Shown here in pieces: positions 7,401 to 39,305 of a DNA stretch of 64,000 nucleotides. Source of the stretch: Synechococcus sp. WH 7805 (GTDB lineage Bacteria; Cyanobacteriota; Cyanobacteriia; PCC-6307; Cyanobiaceae); NCBI RefSeq assembly GCF_000153285.1, contig NZ_CH724168.1:641854-705853 (forward strand). The letters are read 5' to 3'. Below the pieces are notes generated by a model. The model had not been told where the DNA came from and made no database searches. It saw only the letters and a program-made list of their open reading frames with translations. Position 1 is the first letter of the stretch. The number at the start of each line of letters is the position of its first letter. Made by a program: the position numbers and the translations under genes.

Positions 7401-10400
7401 GCACCTTGGATCCGGGTGAATCATCCACCGTTTCAGCTCAGACCTACACCACCACCCAAAACGACATCGATTCCAATGGCATCGATGCAGCCGGCAATCC
7501 TGATGGTGATGGCGATATCGATAACACCGCCACCGCTGATTCTGATCAAACCGGTGCTGTCACTGATTCAGAAGCAATTCCGATCACCCAGGATCCTTCT
7601 CTCTCCATTGACAAGCAGGTCATTGATGTTGATAACAGAGGGCCAGATGCAGCCGTAACCGCTGCAGGACAGGTCATCACCTACGACCTCATCGTCACCA
7701 ACAACGGCAACACAACCCTCACCGGCGTCACTGTTGTTGATCCACTCACTGGCACCAACGTCACGATCGGCACCTTGGATCCGGGTGAATCATCCACCGT
7801 TTCGGCTCAGACCTACACCACCACCCAGAACGACATCGATGCCAATGGCATCGATGCAGCCGGCAATCCTGATGGTGATGGCGATATCGATAACACCGCC
7901 ACCGCTGATTCTGATCAAACCGATCCAGTCTCAGATTCAGAAGCAGTTCCGATCATCCAAGGGCCAGATCTTCCAACTCAAGAGCCTTCTCTCTCCATTG
8001 ACAAGCAGGTCATTGATGTTGATGGCAATGGTCCAACTGCAGCCGTAACCGCTGCAGGACAGGTCATCACCTACGACCTCATCGTCACCAACAACGGCAA
8101 CACAACCCTCACTGGCGTCACTGTTGTTGATCCACTCACTGGCACCGACGTCACGATCGGCACCTTGGCTCCAGGTGAATCATTCACCGTCTCAGCTCAG
8201 ACCTACACCACCACCCAACAAGACATCGATGCCAATGGCATCGATGCAGCCGGCAATCCTGATGGTGATGGCGATATCGATAACACCGCCACCGCTGATT
8301 CCAATCAAACCGGTGCTGTCACTGATTCAGAAGCAGTTCCGATCACCCAGGATCCTTCTCTCTCCATTGACAAGCAGGTCATTGATGTTGATGGCAATGG
8401 TCCAACTGCAGCCGTAACCGCTGCAGGACAGGTCATCACCTACGACCTCATCGTCACCAACAACGGCAATACAACCCTCACCGGCGTCACCGTTGTTGAT
8501 CCACTCACTGGCACCAACGTCACGATCGGCACCTTGGATCCAGGTGAATCATCCACCGTTTCAGCTCAGACCTACACCACCACCCAAAACGACATCGATT
8601 CCGATGGCATCGATGCAGCCGGCAATCCTGATGGTGATGGCGATATCGATAACACTGCCACCGCTGATTCTGATCAAACCGGTGCTGTCACTGATTCAGA
8701 AGCAGTTCCGATCACCCAGGATCCTTCTCTCTCCATTGACAAGCAGGTCATTGATGTTGATGGCAATGGTCCAACTGCAGCCGTAACCGCTGCAGGACAG
8801 GTCATCACCTACGACCTCATCGTCACCAACAACGGCAACACAACCCTCACCGGCGTCACTGTTGTTGATCCACTCACTGGCACCAACGTCACTGTCGGCA
8901 CCCTGGATCCAGGTGAATCATCCACCGTTTCAGCTCAGACCTACACCACCACCCAACAAGACATCGATTCCAATGGCATCGATGCAGCCGGCAATCCTGA
9001 TGGTGATGGCGATATCGATAACACCGCCACCGCTGATTCTGATCAAACCGGTGCTGTCACTGATTCAGAAGCAGTTCCGATCACCCAGGATCCTTCTCTC
9101 TCCATTGACAAGCAGGTCATTGATGTTGATAACAGAGGGCCAGATGCAGCCGTAACCGCTGCAGGACAGGTCATCACCTACGACCTCATCGTCACCAACA
9201 ACGGCAACACAACCCTCACCGCCGTCACCGTTGTTGATCCACTCACTGGCACCGACGTTACGATCGGCACCTTGGATCCAGGTGAATCATCCACCGTTTC
9301 AGCTCAGACCTACACCACCACCCAGAACGACATCGATTCCAATGGCATCGATGCAGCCGGCAATCCTGATGGTGATGGCGATATCGATAACACCGCCACC
9401 GCTGATTCCGATCAAACCGATCCAGTCTCAGATTCAGAAGAAGTTCCACTCTCACTCACTCCTGGCCTCACCATCTCCAAAACCGTCGTCTCTGTTGATC
9501 CAACAGGAGATGCAGTAGCCAACCAGGTCGGTGATGTCATCAATTATCAGATCACTGTCACCAACAACGGCAATCAGACACTCACAAACGTCAGCGTCGT
9601 TGATCCACTCACGGGCCTAGACCAAACCATAAATTCACTCGCTCCTGGCGCTTCTCAGGACTTCAATACCTCCTACACACTCACACAACAAGACATCGAT
9701 TCCAATGGCATCGATGCAGCCGGCAATCCTGATGGTGATGGCGATATCGATAACACCGCCACCGCTGATTCCAATCAGACCGGTGCTGTCACTGATTCAG
9801 AAGCAGTTCCGATCACTCAGAATTCTTCTCTCTCCATTGACAAGCAGGTCATTGATGTTGGTGGAGAGGGTCCAACTGGAGCCGTAACCGCTGCAGGACA
9901 GGTCATCACCTATGACCTCATCGTCACCAACAACGGCAATACAACCCTCACCGGCATCACCGTTGTTGATCCACTCACTGGCACCAACGTCACTGTCGAC
10001 ACCCTGGCTCCAGGTGAATCATCCACCGTTTCAGCTCAGACCTACACCACCACCCAAAACGACATCGATACTGCTGGCGGTGGTGATGGCGATATCGATA
10101 ACACTGCCACCGCTGATTCCGATCAAACCGATCCAGTCTCAGATTCAGAAGAAGTTCCAATCATCACCTCACTCGGTACATTTCCCCCCTTAAATGCTGA
10201 CATCTCCAGACTCCTAACTGAAGATAAAAATACTATATTAGAAAACGATACAGACTCAGTATTTGTAAACGTACGCGGGGGGTCAGGGTCTTTCAGCTTT
10301 AGACTGGACAACAATACGGATCCAAACTTTGGCACCTGGTCGATAAACGAAAGCACAGGAGAAATTTCATTTACACAAACATCAGCTTTTCAACATTCAG

Positions 10401-13400
10401 AAGAGCCAAATCCACAAACCCAATTTGAAGCCAGTTTTGTCAATGTATTGGTATCTGACTTAGTCACTGGAAATACTGTCCGTCTACGAGCCGTTGTTGA
10501 CATCACTGATGACGGACCAACCGTCTCTACCGACTTCGCCGCCGCTGCTCTCACTCTCGACGAGGACGACCTCTCCAACGGATCCGATCAATCCGATCCC
10601 ACCTCCGTCTCCGGTTCTCTCTTCTCTGCTGACAACACCGGTTCCTTCTCCTTTGGCGCCGATAACGGCTCCATCACAGCCATCCAATTCGGCACCGGCG
10701 ACTCCGCTACAACCGTCAACCTCGGCTCAGAGAACTCCACCACCGTTTTCTTCGCGCAGGACGGCACACAACAGGGCACCTCGTCCACCGACGCTGCTGC
10801 TTCCCTCCTCGTTAATGCCGACGGCACTTATACCTTCAATCTCCTCGACAACCTCCTCCTTCCCAATCCTCCCGCCGACAACGGAGAACAAACCGAGAAC
10901 CTCTCTTCCATCAATGGCGGCATCGTCCTCCTCGGACAGGACAACGACGGTGACCTCATCAATTCAGGCAACGGCATCGCTCTCACTCTCAACGTCGTTG
11001 ACGACATCCCAACCGCCTCCTCCGACTTCGCCGCCGCTGCTCTCACTCTCGACGAGGACGACCTCTCCAACGGATCCGATCAATCCGATCCCACCTCCGT
11101 CTCCGGTTCTCTCTTCTCTGCTGACAACACCGGTTCCTTCTCCTTTGGCGCCGATAACGGCTCCATCACAGCCATCCAATTCGGCACCGGCGACTCCGCT
11201 ACAACCGTCAACCTCGGCTCAGAGAACTCCACCACCGTTTTCTTCGCGCAGGACGGCACACAACAGGGCACCTCGTCCACCGACGCTGCTGCTTCCCTCC
11301 TCGTTAATTCCGACGGCACTTATACCTTCAATCTCCTCGACAACCTCCTCCTTCCCAATCCTCCCGCCGACAACGGAGAACAAACCGAGAACCTCTCTTC
11401 CATCAATGGCGGCATCGTCCTCCTCGGACAGGACAACGACGGTGACCTCATCAATTCAGGCAACGGCATCGCTCTCACTCTCAACGTCGTTGACGACATC
11501 CCAACCGCCTCCTCCGACTTCGCCGCCGCTGCTCTCACTCTCGACGAGGACGACCTCTCCAACGGATCCGATCAATCCGATCCCACCTCCGTCTCCGGTT
11601 CTCTCTTCTCTGCTGACAACACCGGTTCCTTCTCCTTTGGCGCCGATGGCGGTTCCATCACAGGCATCGCCATCAATGGCGTCAACACCTCACTAGGCTC
11701 AGAGACATCCACAACCGTTTTCTTCGCGCAAAACGGCACTTCACTAGGCACCACATCCTCTGGCGCTGCAGCTTCTCTTCTCGTTAATGCCGACGGCACC
11801 TATACCTTCTCTCTCCTTAACAACCTCCTCCTCGACGGCACCAACAACGGACAGCAAACCGAAAGCCTCTCAGCCATCAACAACAACTCCATCGTTCTCC
11901 TCGGTCAGGACAACGACGGTGACCTCATCAACTCAGGCAACGGCATCGCTCTCACTCTCAACGTCGTCGACGATGTCCCAACTGCCTTTACACCTGACAA
12001 TGTCACACTCATTAATTCAGGAAGTGCAAATGCACAAGACAGTAACTTTAATATCACAACCTCAACAACAGGAGCCGACCAGGAAGATGCAAACCTGACA
12101 TTCACAACAAATGATGGAGACATTGTCCTAGGAAGCATTAACGGGCAGAACGAACAACAACTAACATCAGGAGGCTTAGGTCTAGCTTACTACGTATCTG
12201 ATGACAGAAAAGTTTTAACTGCTTCAACCTCAACAACAGAACCGACTAACAGCGAAGACACATCAATTGCATATACCATTGAGATTAATGGCGACACAAC
12301 AACTGGGTTCACCTATGATGTAATCACAAAGAAGACGATTGACAACGGGTCAGGATTAACATTTGATCCTGGAACGGCAATTGGCCCCTCAGGAGGGAAT
12401 CCACCTTATGAAATCATCGCTAACAGTGGCGATGTCGAAATCTTGGTGACCGGATACGACATAAGTACAATTGCCAACAACGGAGACGTATCGCAAACAT
12501 CGGTCAATGTAAACGACTTTAGTTATTCAGCCAGCACTGGTTCAGGTTTAAGGGGTGGCCAAAATCTAGTTCTAGATTACGGCACATTCTCCATCGGAAA
12601 TCCAGACTCAAGCTTTATTATTGACTCACGAATAGACATAATTGCACCAAAATTTACCCTCGTTCAAGGAAGTCCACGCGAAAACCTTACCGTTGCTGCC
12701 GTCAACGCCAACGGATCAACAACAAACACCAACGCAACAGGCTCAACAGATACTGTTGAAGAAATCAATGCATTTACAATTGTAAGAGCCAGTGATGAAA
12801 GTGCATTTACAAGAACCAAAGCCAGCGGTTCAAGCGGCAGTATTGTTCTTGATAGCTCACAAACAGTTGCATATACATTCAACAATGATGGCACTTTAAG
12901 CCTACAAAACATCAATGCAGGAAGCGGCAGCACCACAGGCGATTCACTAATAGTATTCGCAAACAATACGAATCGATTGGTGATTCAAAATGATAAAACA
13001 GGCAATAGCCCCAACTTCTCAATCGCCGAAGTCGAAGTCGGAAATTTTGACGCCGGGAATCCAGTCAGTACTAACATTGATGTTGCGCTTAAAGATGGAG
13101 ATGGAGATCAATCTAATTCGGCTTTTGCAATCAACTTTAATCCAGATTTACCGACAAACACTAATCCACCAATCACTATTGATCTTGACGGCAATGGAAT
13201 CAGTTACTTGTCACTCGAGGATGATATTCAATTCACTGACATTAATACGTTAGAAACGATTCAAACTGCATGGGTGGCATCGAATGATGGCATCCTTGTT
13301 TATGACGCTAATCAATCTGGAAGCGTGGAGACTCTTGATGAGTTTGTATTGACACGCTTGAGCACGCAAGCCTCAACAGACCTTGAGGCACTCGCTGAAG

Positions 13401-34773: not shown

Positions 34774-36027
34774 CTAAGCCGCCGACCTCCGAACAGCAGG
34801 AAGCCGCAGACTGGTGAACCACGAGAGGAAGACAAGGAGAGATGAAGTCCAGAGGCAGGCCTGCATCCCTGAGGAGGGAGTTCCACCGATCAGAAACACG
34901 GCACCGGAAAGCAAGGTTCCAACCAGACGGCCTGCCGCATTCGCCATGTAATAGAAGCCCACATTGAGGCTCACGTTCTCCTCATCGGTGTAAGCCAGCA
35001 CCATGTACGAGTGAATCGAGGAGTTCATCGCGAAGACGACTCCAAAAGCCGCCAAACCGCCCACGATCGCGACCGCCACATCAACCTCACGAAGAAGGGC
35101 GATGGCAATGAGCGCGGGAATTGCGGTGAGAACCGCACTCCAAAACTGCACAGCAGACGCCCCGGGACTTTCACGCTGTCCCCAGAGGCGACGCAGCCCG
35201 GGGGCTGTGCCCTGCACGATCCCGTAACCAATCACCCAGAGGCCGAGGAAGCCGCCGATTTCCCAGAACCCCCAGCCAAGGGAGGCTTCCAGAAACACCG
35301 GAAGTGCCACCACAAACCACACATCGCGGGCACCGAACAAAAAGAAACGAGCGGCCGAAAGCACATTGATGCCTTGGCTCTTCGAAAACAGAGACGAAAA
35401 CGCAGGCTTGGCCTTCATTTTTCCGATCTCGCCCGGCAACACCAGAGTGACGAGAAAAGCCAGTGCCAGACCTGCAGCCATCCAGGCCACGGCAGCATTG
35501 AAACTCAATGCTGTGAGCAGAACTCCGCCAAGGAAAAAACCAACCCCCTTGAGAGCATTTTTGGAACCGGTGAGGATCGCCACCCACTTAAATAATTGCT
35601 TCTCACCTTTTTGAGCATCATCTGGGGTTTCGGGAACCACCGTTTTAATGGCGCTCTTGGCGCTCATCTTGTTGAGATCCTTGGCAATCCCACTGATCGC
35701 CTGAGCAACCATTACGTACACCACGCTCAGGAGCTTTGGCCAGGATTCCGCGACGGGAACCAGCATCAACAACGCAAAGATCTGCAGAAGCGTCCCGACC
35801 CAAAGGGTGAGACGTAATCCATAACGAGCTCCGATCCAGCCTCCATAGAGATTGGTGAGAACCCCGAAGAATTCATAAAAGAGAAATAGAAAGGCGATCT
35901 CGAGGGTGGAGTATCCGAGCTCGTGAAAATGGAACACAACCAACATGCGCAAGGCGCCGTCAGTGAGGGTGAACGCCCAATAATTGGCCGTCACAATTCC
36001 GTACTGCTGCAGAGCGGAGAGCTTCAT
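34774..36027 (-). CDS. arsJ: ArsJ organoarsenical efflux MFS transporter
   Basis: The 417-residue, roughly 12-helix MFS protein has the ArsJ N-terminus ([34 protein letters not shown]). ArsJ exports 1-arseno-3-phosphoglycerate, produced when a dedicated GAPDH uses arsenate in place of phosphate. The adjoining upstream gene is such a GAPDH and the two overlap by ATGA, so they are translationally coupled. Together they give arsenate resistance without reduction to arsenite. Confidence 0.93.
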
Positions 36028-37046
36028 GCCTCACTCTCCACAACATGGCAAGTGAGATCAGCCATTCTCGAGCTGTAACCCCATTCGTTGTCATACCAAG
36101 CGAACACTTTCAACTGAGTGCCATCAACAACCATCGTGGACAGCGCATCAATGATCGAACTGCGATTGTCGTTGGTGTAATCACAAGACACCAAAGGGCG
36201 CTCCTCGTAACCCAGGATCCCCTTGAGTTGACCTTCCGCAGCAGCCTTGAACGCTGCATTCACCTCTTCAACCGTGACGCTGTGCTTGAGCTCGAACACG
36301 GCATCGGTGAGGGAACCATTGAGCAGCGGTACACGGACCGCATGACCATTGAGCTTGCCCTTGAGCTCAGGGAAGATCATCGCGATCGCCTTGGCCGATC
36401 CGGTCGTGGTGGGGATCAGTGAGGTGAGGCCAGAGCGGGCCCGTCGCAGATCACTCTTGAAGGCATCGATCGGCACCTGGGTGTTGGTGATGTCGTGAAT
36501 GGTGGTGATCATTCCGTGCTCAATGCCGAAGCTCTCATGCACCACCTTCACCACAGGCGCCAGGCAGTTGGTGGTGCAGGAGGCCGCGGTCACCAACCGG
36601 TTCCGATCGGGCTCGTAAAGGTGATGGTTGATGCCGTAAACAATGTTGAGAGCTTCCGCACCGGCAACGACACCCTTCACAGGGCAAGCCACAACAACAC
36701 GTTTCAGCCCTACCCGCTCGAAATAGGGGTTGAGGGTCTCTGGCGTTTTGATCTTGCCGCTGGCCTCCAGCACCATCTCCACCCCGCGCTCAGACCAAGG
36801 CACAGCGGTGGGATCTTTCTCACTCGACCATGTCAGAAGGGCCCCCTCCACGGTGAATCCCTCAGCGCTACTGCTGATCGCGCGATCCCAGCGGCCATGG
36901 ACCGAGTCAAACTCCAGAAGATGAGCGGCGGTTGCGGCATCACCGGCGGGGTCATTGACGTGAACCAGTTCGATGCCGGGTCGCCCCCACAGCGCTCTGA
37001 ACACAAGGCGACCGATGCGCCCGAAGCCATTGATGCCGATCCGCAT
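36024..37046 (-). CDS. gap: ArsJ-associated glyceraldehyde-3-phosphate dehydrogenase
   Basis: The 340-residue GAPDH has the NAD-binding start [18 protein letters not shown] and the catalytic motif SCTTNCLAP (Cys157). Housekeeping GAPDH is a glycolytic and Calvin-cycle enzyme; this copy, coupled by a 4-base overlap to arsJ and preceded by two ArsR-type boxes, is best read as the enzyme that forms 1-arseno-3-phosphoglycerate from glyceraldehyde-3-phosphate and arsenate. That assignment depends on context, since the fold alone does not separate it from other GAPDHs. Confidence 0.92.
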
Positions 37047-37075
37047 GAGATCAAAGGGCTCGATCGCCCGAAAAG

Positions 37076-37109
37076 ATCAAACTATCTTGATTGATCAACA
37101 TTGATTGAT
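37076..37109. promoter_or_regulatory. Two tandem ArsR-type operators upstream of GAPDH-arsJ
   Basis: Two exact ATCAA-N6-TTGAT palindromes occur at 37076-37091 and 37094-37109, spaced 18 bp start to start. They lie 30-63 bp upstream of the GAPDH start (minus strand). This matches the double ATCAA-N6-TTGAT element I recall being reported for ArsR of Synechocystis at arsBHC. They should let ArsR repress the GAPDH-arsJ unit until arsenite appears, and might also affect the divergent mscS side. Confidence 0.8.
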
Positions 37110-37246
37110 GCAACCACCTGGTTCCCAGGACGAACCCGATGGGCAGCCTCATGGGTCGCGCTCGACGGACAAGAACGCTTGAACACAATGAGCTTGCAGG
37201 CAACGCCGATGCCTAGCAAAATTTTCAGAAGTGAATTGAATCGCCA

Positions 37247-38272
37247 ATGAACGTGAGTCATCTCCTCTGGACTGTTCTGGGCGGCGCAGCAATCACCTTG
37301 GTGCTGTCCTACCTATTGCGACGAGTTTTACCTCAACTCACTCGCAAAACAAAAGGCGATTTTGACGATTTAGCGATCAGCGCACTCGCGGATGCCGTCA
37401 TCCCCATCGGCATCATCATCATCCTGGTTCTCACCGAGCAGGATCTTGGCCTAGCCAGCAACTTAAAGGTGGCCTATGGCGTCGGCCTGCGGACCGTCGT
37501 CACAATCGTGATGGTCCGCTACGCGAATCGAGTCGCCTCCCGATTCCTCACCATTGCCGCGAGGCGCTCTGGAGGGGAAGAGCTGCAACAGCTGCTCACA
37601 AGCCTTCTGCCTTTGCTTAGAGCTTTGGTGTGGATCGTCGGAATCTTGGCCCTCCTCCAAAGCCTGGGCGTGAAAATGACCGTGATCTGGGGTCTGCTCA
37701 GCGCCGGCGGCATTGGCATCGGCCTCGCCCTGAAAGAACCCGCCCAAGAACTTTTTGCTTACCTCATGATTCTTCTGGACAAGCCCTTCACTCTGGGGCA
37801 AACAATCCAGTCAGGATCGATGACGGCAACGGTGGAAAAGATTGGAGTTCGATCCACTCATTTACGAAGCCTGCGTGGTGAGCTTGTGGTGATGAACAAC
37901 TCCACTCTCACGGAAAACACAATTCAGAATTTTGCTGAAATGAATCAGCGACGAATGATTTACTCCATTGGCGTCACATACGACACGACCGTGGAACAGA
38001 TGAAAGCGATTCCGGCGATGATTGAAGCCATTATCGCCCAGCAGGAACACAGCACCTTCTCCCGTTGTCATTTCACTGAATTCGGAGACTCCAGCCTGAA
38101 TTTCGAGCTTGCTTACTACATCGATACACGCGATTACACCGTCGCCCTCAATGATCAGCAGGCGATCAATCTCAAAATCATGCAATCCTTTGAAGATATG
38201 GGCATCGAATTCGCATTCCCGAGCCAAACCGTTTACCTGGAAAGCGATTCAGGGCTGAACAAGGAATCCTGA
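37247..38272 (+). CDS. mscS: Small-conductance mechanosensitive channel (MscS family)
   Basis: The 341-residue protein has about four hydrophobic N-terminal segments and the MscS pore region (VIWGLLSAGGIGIGLALKEP), followed by the beta domain (GQTIQSG, VEKIGVRSTHLRSLRGELVV). MscS channels release solutes under hypo-osmotic stress. It sits between the divergent GAPDH-arsJ unit and arsR, 71 bp before arsR, so co-regulation with the ars genes is possible but unproven. Confidence 0.93.
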   Translation: MNVSHLLWTVLGGAAITLVLSYLLRRVLPQLTRKTKGDFDDLAISALADAVIPIGIIIILVLTEQDLGLASNLKVAYGVGLRTVVTIVMVRYANRVASRFLTIAARRSGGEELQQLLTSLLPLLRALVWIVGILALLQSLGVKMTVIWGLLSAGGIGIGLALKEPAQELFAYLMILLDKPFTLGQTIQSGSMTATVEKIGVRSTHLRSLRGELVVMNNSTLTENTIQNFAEMNQRRMIYSIGVTYDTTVEQMKAIPAMIEAIIAQQEHSTFSRCHFTEFGDSSLNFELAYYIDTRDYTVALNDQQAINLKIMQSFEDMGIEFAFPSQTVYLESDSGLNKES

Positions 38273-38343
38273 ACAAGTTGCAGACCTGCAGACAATCCCT
38301 CGAAACTGGCCCACTTACGCTGGCATGAATGCCGACGTAGTCC

Positions 38344-38676
38344 ATGACGTCCTCCGTGGACAAAGTGCTCAATTTGGATAGCGACCAAGCTCAGAGCCTG
38401 CTCAAAGCACTCTCAGACCCCCTGCGACTCCGCATACTCGATCAGCTGTCCACCGGCGAGCGCTGCGTGTGTGACCTAACAGAGGCTCTGACCTTGTCCC
38501 AGTCACGCCTTTCATTTCACCTCAAAGTCATGAAGGAAGCAGGTCTGCTAGGGGATCGTCAAAGCGGACGCTGGGTGTACTACCGCATTCGAACTGAAGC
38601 CCTGAACGCGCTGCAGGGATGGCTTCACGAGCTCACTCGCTCCTGCGAAACACCGGCCAACAGCTGCAGCGACTAA
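38344..38676 (+). CDS. arsR: ArsR-family metalloregulator
   Basis: The 110-residue winged-helix repressor has an ArsR signature (ALSDPLRLRILDQL), the metal-sensing motif ERCVCDLTE (Cys41, Cys43) and a recognition helix LSQSRLSFHLKVMKEAGLL. Two further cysteines near the C-terminus (101, 108) might join an As(III) site. It is the obvious candidate to bind the two operators at 37076-37109. The downstream DUF938 gene starts 5 bp later. Confidence 0.93.
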   Translation: MTSSVDKVLNLDSDQAQSLLKALSDPLRLRILDQLSTGERCVCDLTEALTLSQSRLSFHLKVMKEAGLLGDRQSGRWVYYRIRTEALNALQGWLHELTRSCETPANSCSD

Positions 38677-38681
38677 TCCTG

Positions 38682-39305
38682 ATGGATCTCTCCAGTCCCG
38701 ACGCAAGGCTGTTTTTTCCAGCGACGCAACGCAATAGGAGGCCGATCGGGGATGTCCTGGCCGAGACTCTCCCCCCGAAGGGACTCATTCTCGAACTGGC
38801 CAGTGGATCGGGCGAACACGGCGTTGCCTTTCAAAAGCGATTTCCCCAGATCACCTGGCAGTGCAGTGATCCAGACCGTAATCACTGCCGCAGCATCAGC
38901 GCATGGATCAGCAAAGAAGGACTGACCACTGTGATGCCGCAGCCTTTGTCATTGGATGTGTGCTCCCATGACTGGTTAACGCATGGTTCAGAGGCTCCGG
39001 TCATGGTTGTGGCTGTGAACCTGCTCCACATCTCCCCCTGGGAGTGCACACGATCTCTCATGCAGGGATCCGTCCGCCACCTGAAACCAGGAGGGAAGCT
39101 CTTGATTTACGGCCCATTTCGGGTCAGTGGAAAGCATGTGAGCGAAAGCAATCAACGCTTCGACGACGCGTTGCAGGAACGCGATCCGAGCTGGGGAGTC
39201 CGCGAGCAGGAGGCTGTGGTCGAGGAGGCCCGGAAAGCCGGACTCGCCCTTCAAGACATTCGCTTAATGCCCTCAAACAATCGAATCATCCTGCTTGAAC
39301 GATGA
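38682..39305 (+). CDS. DUF938 SAM-dependent methyltransferase-like protein
   Basis: The 207-residue protein has the SAM motif LILELASGSGEHGVAF and the DUF938 features LLHISPWECT and YGPFRVSGKH. DUF938 proteins are widespread with uncertain function. The gene is 5 bp after arsR and probably in its transcript, so a role in arsenic handling is possible. It does not look like ArsM, which has a distinct cysteine set. The start is the ATG at 38682; a longer frame from 38619 would overlap arsR. Confidence 0.88.
   Translation: MDLSSPDARLFFPATQRNRRPIGDVLAETLPPKGLILELASGSGEHGVAFQKRFPQITWQCSDPDRNHCRSISAWISKEGLTTVMPQPLSLDVCSHDWLTHGSEAPVMVVAVNLLHISPWECTRSLMQGSVRHLKPGGKLLIYGPFRVSGKHVSESNQRFDDALQERDPSWGVREQEAVVEEARKAGLALQDIRLMPSNNRIILLER

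Follow-up and report, generated by a model that had tools for sequence, protein, structure and literature searches.

A candidate tandem ArsR operator before the gapdh-arsJ pair of Synechococcus sp. WH 7805

Two exact copies of the palindrome ATCAA-N6-TTGAT precede the gapdh-arsJ pair of Synechococcus sp. WH 7805, and very probably form a tandem operator for the ArsR protein encoded at 38344, by which this pair would be controlled. A pattern scan of the stretch of DNA analysed, 64 kb in length and termed here the window, confirmed that two copies are present and 18 bp apart, as originally predicted from the letters: the copy nearer to gapdh reads ATCAAACTATCTTGAT, and the distal copy, ATCAACATTGATTGAT, follows after a 2-bp gap. 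No further exact match was found in the window. The doublet lies 30-63 bp before the GAPDH start, inside the 200-bp gap that separates the divergent genes (Table 1); gapdh-arsJ is thus an arsenic gene set with two direct repeats, at an 18-bp step, in its promoter region.

Table 1. Features of the gapdh-arsJ region, with positions as numbered in the window.
Feature	Position	Strand	Basis or remark
arsJ, organoarsenical efflux MFS transporter	34774..36027	-	NF033734, 581.3 bits (cut-off 400)
ArsJ-associated GAPDH	36024..37046	-	NF033735, 553.1 bits (cut-off 450)
Intergenic region gapdh/mscS (divergent), containing both copies	37047..37246		No sigma-70-like promoter by scan
Proximal candidate ArsR operator copy (nearer gapdh)	37076..37091		Exact; copy type kept in 55/60 family loci
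Distal candidate ArsR operator copy	37094..37109		Exact; 18-bp step from proximal copy
mscS-type channel, first gene of divergent side	37247..38272	+	PF00924 and PF21082 over cut-off
arsR	38344..38676	+	NF033788 (ArsR/SmtB metalloregulator), 98.9 bits (cut-off 55); PF01022, 63.9 (cut-off 22)
DUF938 methyltransferase-like gene	38682..39305	+	PF06080, 205 bits (cut-off 27)

The names first given to the GAPDH-arsJ pair and to arsR are upheld by the curated models NF033735, NF033734 and NF033788. The two genes of the pair are adjacent, arsJ overlapping the end of gapdh by 4 bp, and both score above the curated cut-offs; they make up a predicted arsenate resistance pair, in which GAPDH presumably produces 1-arseno-3-phosphoglycerate for export by ArsJ, the chemistry being taken from the family literature and the function from family membership. 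The original prediction had placed arsR two genes away on the other strand. The strand is correct, but the gene is not remote: only mscS intervenes, arsR being the second gene of an mscS-arsR-DUF938 set that diverges from the same intergenic region as gapdh, and the site is thus positioned to act on both sides. The 38344 protein contains an ArsR/SmtB winged-helix domain, and its closest solved relatives by sequence belong to the ArsR/SmtB family, among them 6j0e, an arsenic-responsive ArsR, and SmtB (1r1t). In an alignment of 50 family copies, Cys41 and Cys43 of the CVCD motif and the C-terminal Cys108 are invariant (50/50), while Cys101 occurs in 40. The corresponding motif of E. coli ArsR is CVCDLC; the third of its cysteines is missing from the 38344 protein, whose binding of As(III) by its cysteines is a prediction.

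The DUF938 ATG stands 5 bp past the arsR stop. MscS-type channel and DUF938 genes accompany arsR in two gene orders, mscS-arsR-DUF938 and arsR-DUF938-mscS, in the window and in relatives (L056, L064, L065, L071, L075 and L079); in the set of 60 loci described below DUF938 falls within the stretch in 11 and MscS in 8, and one further locus (L256) has an MscS-like match after arsJ too. Both may be unrecognised arsenic genes.

The palindrome had been equated with the ArsR element of Synechocystis, and the same sequence is indeed restated in PMC4585019, which in excerpt recalls a footprint of two 17-bp direct repeats with ATCAA(N)6TTGAT in the arsBHC promoter region of Synechocystis PCC 6803 (Lopez-Maury 2003). 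The window resembles that operator in its motif and in the presence of two direct repeats before arsenic genes, but the Synechocystis repeat is given there as 17 bp and the step here is 18 bp. The genes served differ as well: the Synechocystis operator controls arsBHC, for arsenite efflux and arsenate reduction, with arsR unlinked (PMC4284471, in excerpt), whereas in the window the genes behind it are gapdh-arsJ, and arsR belongs to the divergent side. The excerpt of the same review, in which no operator is given, associates ars clusters of cyanobacteria with Gap3, an MFS transporter and PstS, sometimes also with arsR, and suggests co-regulation; these clusters, unlike the window, are described as one operon with arsB and arsC. 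The GAPDH plus ArsJ strategy is shared with the var operon of Vibrio cholerae (arsR-varG-varH-arsJ), described in an extract of PMC9601151 as ArsR-repressed and arsenate-inducible, and as constitutively expressed when arsR is inactivated. ArsR control, predicted for the window, is common to both, but the var genes are co-directional, with arsR first and the phosphatase gene varH included, whereas the layout of the window is divergent. In Paracoccus denitrificans, according to an extract of PMC9137774, binding of ArsR to two sites with an ATCAAN6TTGAT core was seen by gel retardation; the core and the number of sites are the same as here, but those sites overlap by 8 bp and lie before an arsH-containing ars operon. 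Of the papers listed in searches on this subject, none describes ATCAA-N6-TTGAT before gapdh-arsJ in its title or opening abstract. The reading of the doublet as a new instance of a known module, a known operator in the position usual for the family, is well supported by comparison of sequences.

To say what is usual for the family we drew on 201 of its genomes, of which 154 pass the cut-off for ArsJ-associated GAPDH; the comparison set comprises the window and 59 loci hand-picked from the 153 other genomes, nine of them of the same genus and the rest a spread of other genera. An exact copy lies 10-130 bp before GAPDH in 55 of these 60 gapdh-arsJ loci. When all 1,024 half-sites of the same palindrome form are scored as a control, the next best reaches 5/60 loci, with 0.07 as the mean. 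At a further 18 bp upstream, a second copy matches at least 8 of 10 positions in 23 of the 55 site-bearing loci and is exact in 17/60, and other offsets reach at most 1, self or neighbour overlaps (-4, -14) aside; the distal copy is absent or poor in the remaining 32/55, and so is not essential. Among 43 named family records, which partly overlap the 60, 41 allowed a verdict. An exact copy is present in 40 of these, and 25 show the exact pair at the 18-bp step; in the sole exception, L198, which does have arsR, the copy (at -47) carries one mismatch. Far from being peculiar to this genome, the pairing of this site with GAPDH-ArsJ is the norm across the family. In cyanobacteria outside the family an exact copy is found upstream in 10/20 and 9/19 loci (two overlapping sets). 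None of 18 ArsJ loci of non-cyanobacteria has an exact copy upstream; L247 and L254 have too little upstream DNA to be judged.

Most likely, then, the site before gapdh-arsJ is an ordinary arsenic-responsive switch. When arsenic is absent, ArsR dimers would occupy both palindromes and so keep gapdh-arsJ from being transcribed; binding of arsenic at the invariant cysteines would release ArsR, whereupon GAPDH would turn arsenate into 1-arseno-3-phosphoglycerate and ArsJ export it. In 28 of the 55 site-bearing loci a TANNNT box begins 1 bp after the proximal copy, so that in these relatives this copy fills the space before a -10-like box while the TTGAT of the distal copy falls near -35; such spacing makes blocking of RNA polymerase the likely mode. 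In the window no TANNNT box is found at the relatives' position (CTTTTCG stands there), and a promoter scan of 36950-38400 returned no promoter-like and no terminator-like site; we infer the position of the promoter in this genome.

The same intergenic operator probably restrains the divergent mscS-arsR-DUF938 genes too, and ArsR would then regulate its own synthesis. No upstream copy belonging to arsR itself, within 1 mismatch, is present in the window, and with mscS between the operator and arsR, autoregulation needs read-through from mscS. That the operator serves gapdh-arsJ only, the divergent genes having an independent, unregulated promoter and arsR being constitutive, is rather unlikely. 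In its favour, the distal copy and the mscS start are 137 bp apart, a -10-like box of the gapdh-side kind was not found on the divergent side, and an Ochrobactrum arsR located outside its operon is constitutively expressed, as cited in an excerpted paper. Against this stands the arrangement in relatives: wherever arsR falls within the fetched stretch (50 loci) it runs divergently from gapdh, and in 44 of these it is the immediate divergent neighbour, with at most about 210 bp separating the arsR match from the GAPDH start, the exceptions (the window, L047, L074, L080, L091 and L094) having other DNA or genes between. Moreover, half of the 30 family acr3 loci (15) have the site before an arsR-acr3 pair, a further sign that the arsR side is controlled as well.

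A search for ArsR in the same 201 genomes gave a match at E<=1e-10 in 149. Within the comparison set the presence of the site and that of ArsR agree in 60/60 genomes: all 55 with the site have ArsR, and the five without it (L043-L046, L097) have none at this threshold. Five site-bearing loci lack arsR in the fetched stretch and have it elsewhere in the genome, at 58-65% identity, two of them (G069 and G037) having it as near to gapdh as about 5 kb. A quick GAPDH tree groups the five loci lacking the site in a single clade (SH-aLRT 99), so the agreement may rest on a single event; one of their genomes (G089) is of another genus, making transfer of the site-less variant possible. These comparative data support ArsR as the predicted reader of the site before gapdh-arsJ. 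Two more PF01022 matches in this genome, in open frames of 118 and 227 aa, raise the question whether another ArsR/SmtB-type regulator reads the palindromes while the 38344 protein serves something else; but it is the 38344-type ArsR that the site tracks across all the genomes compared, and that gene which is always divergent from gapdh where both are in the stretch, and the idea is very unlikely.

Still more improbable is that gapdh-arsJ is governed chiefly by phosphate status through PhoB, with the palindrome minor or a relic. It draws on a TTAACC element, found within 130 bp before GAPDH in 18/60 loci, including all five that lack the ArsR site; of the 90 permutations of this hexamer only TCAACT, a part of the operator, is commoner (24). 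TTAACC resembles a Pho box. Scored with the consensus YTTAAYYW-N3-YTTAAYYW against mononucleotide shuffles, 9/60 loci reach p<=0.02, three of which (L054, L076, L095) match on the operator's own bases; of the five loci without the site, four fail to reach significance by this score. The window is not among the 18 loci with TTAACC, and its best Pho-box score is 11 (p 0.59), yet its palindromes are exact.

The family search found the doublet in 64/201 genomes. The doublet places listed, leaving aside that of the window, number 75: in 42 the doublet is no more than 150 bp before GAPDH, in 30 it is on the same contig at up to 12 kb from GAPDH, and three are on contigs with no tabulated GAPDH place; many of the 30 precede pstS. 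The site stands before pstS in 14/14 loci fetched by the doublet pattern and in 19/50 not fetched by it, and the pstS query passes the PstS model. ArsR-type sites, often as a doublet with a 19-bp step, are seen 30-90 bp before pstS genes adjoining arsJ (L184, L185, L187, L195, L196, L218-L220, L222, L223 and others). At L195:9968-10021 three copies stand in a row between divergent pstS and a PtrA-like Crp/Fnr regulator (10095-10733; 189.2 bits, below the PtrA cut-off of 300), and at L190:10451-10467 one exact copy is found some 15 bp ahead of a response-regulator gene (9691-10437) whose best model is PhoB, below its cut-off (219.9 vs 296.2 bits). We put forward only tentatively that in marine picocyanobacteria ArsR and the phosphate regulon may share one circuit, with ArsR doublets in front of gapdh-arsJ and also, where the locus is of Prochlorococcus type, of the pstS next to it, and with gapdh-arsJ moved to a Pho-box-like element in lineages that lack ArsR. 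If true, arsenate would adjust both its own export and the phosphate-binding protein, and an arsenic pump would have had its regulator exchanged, arsenic sensor for phosphate sensor or the reverse.

The original prediction held that the operator is reused across distinct ars systems and proposed a genome scan for further sites. That scan, of the whole genome (2.63 Mb), found 7 places with an exact copy, where the reversed control found none, and a single doublet. The five other exact copies (L003-L007) were considered as parts of a genome-wide ars regulon, and this was rejected, as they add no ars targets: three are inside open frames, one (L007) lies between genes, and one (L006:1501-1516, a single copy) precedes a porin-like gene, these names being read from translations. 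Between 300 bp ahead of the acr3 gene of this genome and 20 bp into it, no copy with at most 1 mismatch is present. Family acr3 loci other than those with the site before arsR-acr3 vary: in five (L107-L109, L119, L123), whose stretch holds neither arsR nor gapdh, the site directly precedes acr3; in one (L125) it is between divergent gapdh and acr3; and in nine of the 30, this genome's own included, it is nowhere in the stretch. Reuse thus holds good among relatives, where arsR-acr3 pairs, acr3 alone and pstS have the site, but is not seen within this genome.

Matches with at most one mismatch number 6 in the window, where shuffled sequence gives 2.18 on average and 6 or more in 4 of 100 shuffles; a count so mildly above chance is weak by itself, and the case therefore stands on the exact doublet and its conservation. 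An order-3 Markov simulation of the window gave a mean of 0.275 exact sites. AT-rich palindromes do arise by chance, as the three genomic copies inside open frames may illustrate, but with two sites within 30 bp in 0/400 simulated windows and the site kept in 55 of 60 loci, the notion of a chance or purely structural repeat can be dismissed.

The novelty here lies in the comparative evidence and in a lead towards phosphate control, and of these the overlap with phosphate control, which is seen in relatives, is the more novel lead. The doublet yields a clear prediction for the control of GAPDH-ArsJ arsenate detoxification in abundant ocean phototrophs, and the operator can serve to flag arsenic-regulated genes in their genomes. 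The variants found among relatives—the ArsR site, the ArsR site with TTAACC, TTAACC alone, and the ArsR site before pstS—open the link between arsenate and phosphate to comparison.
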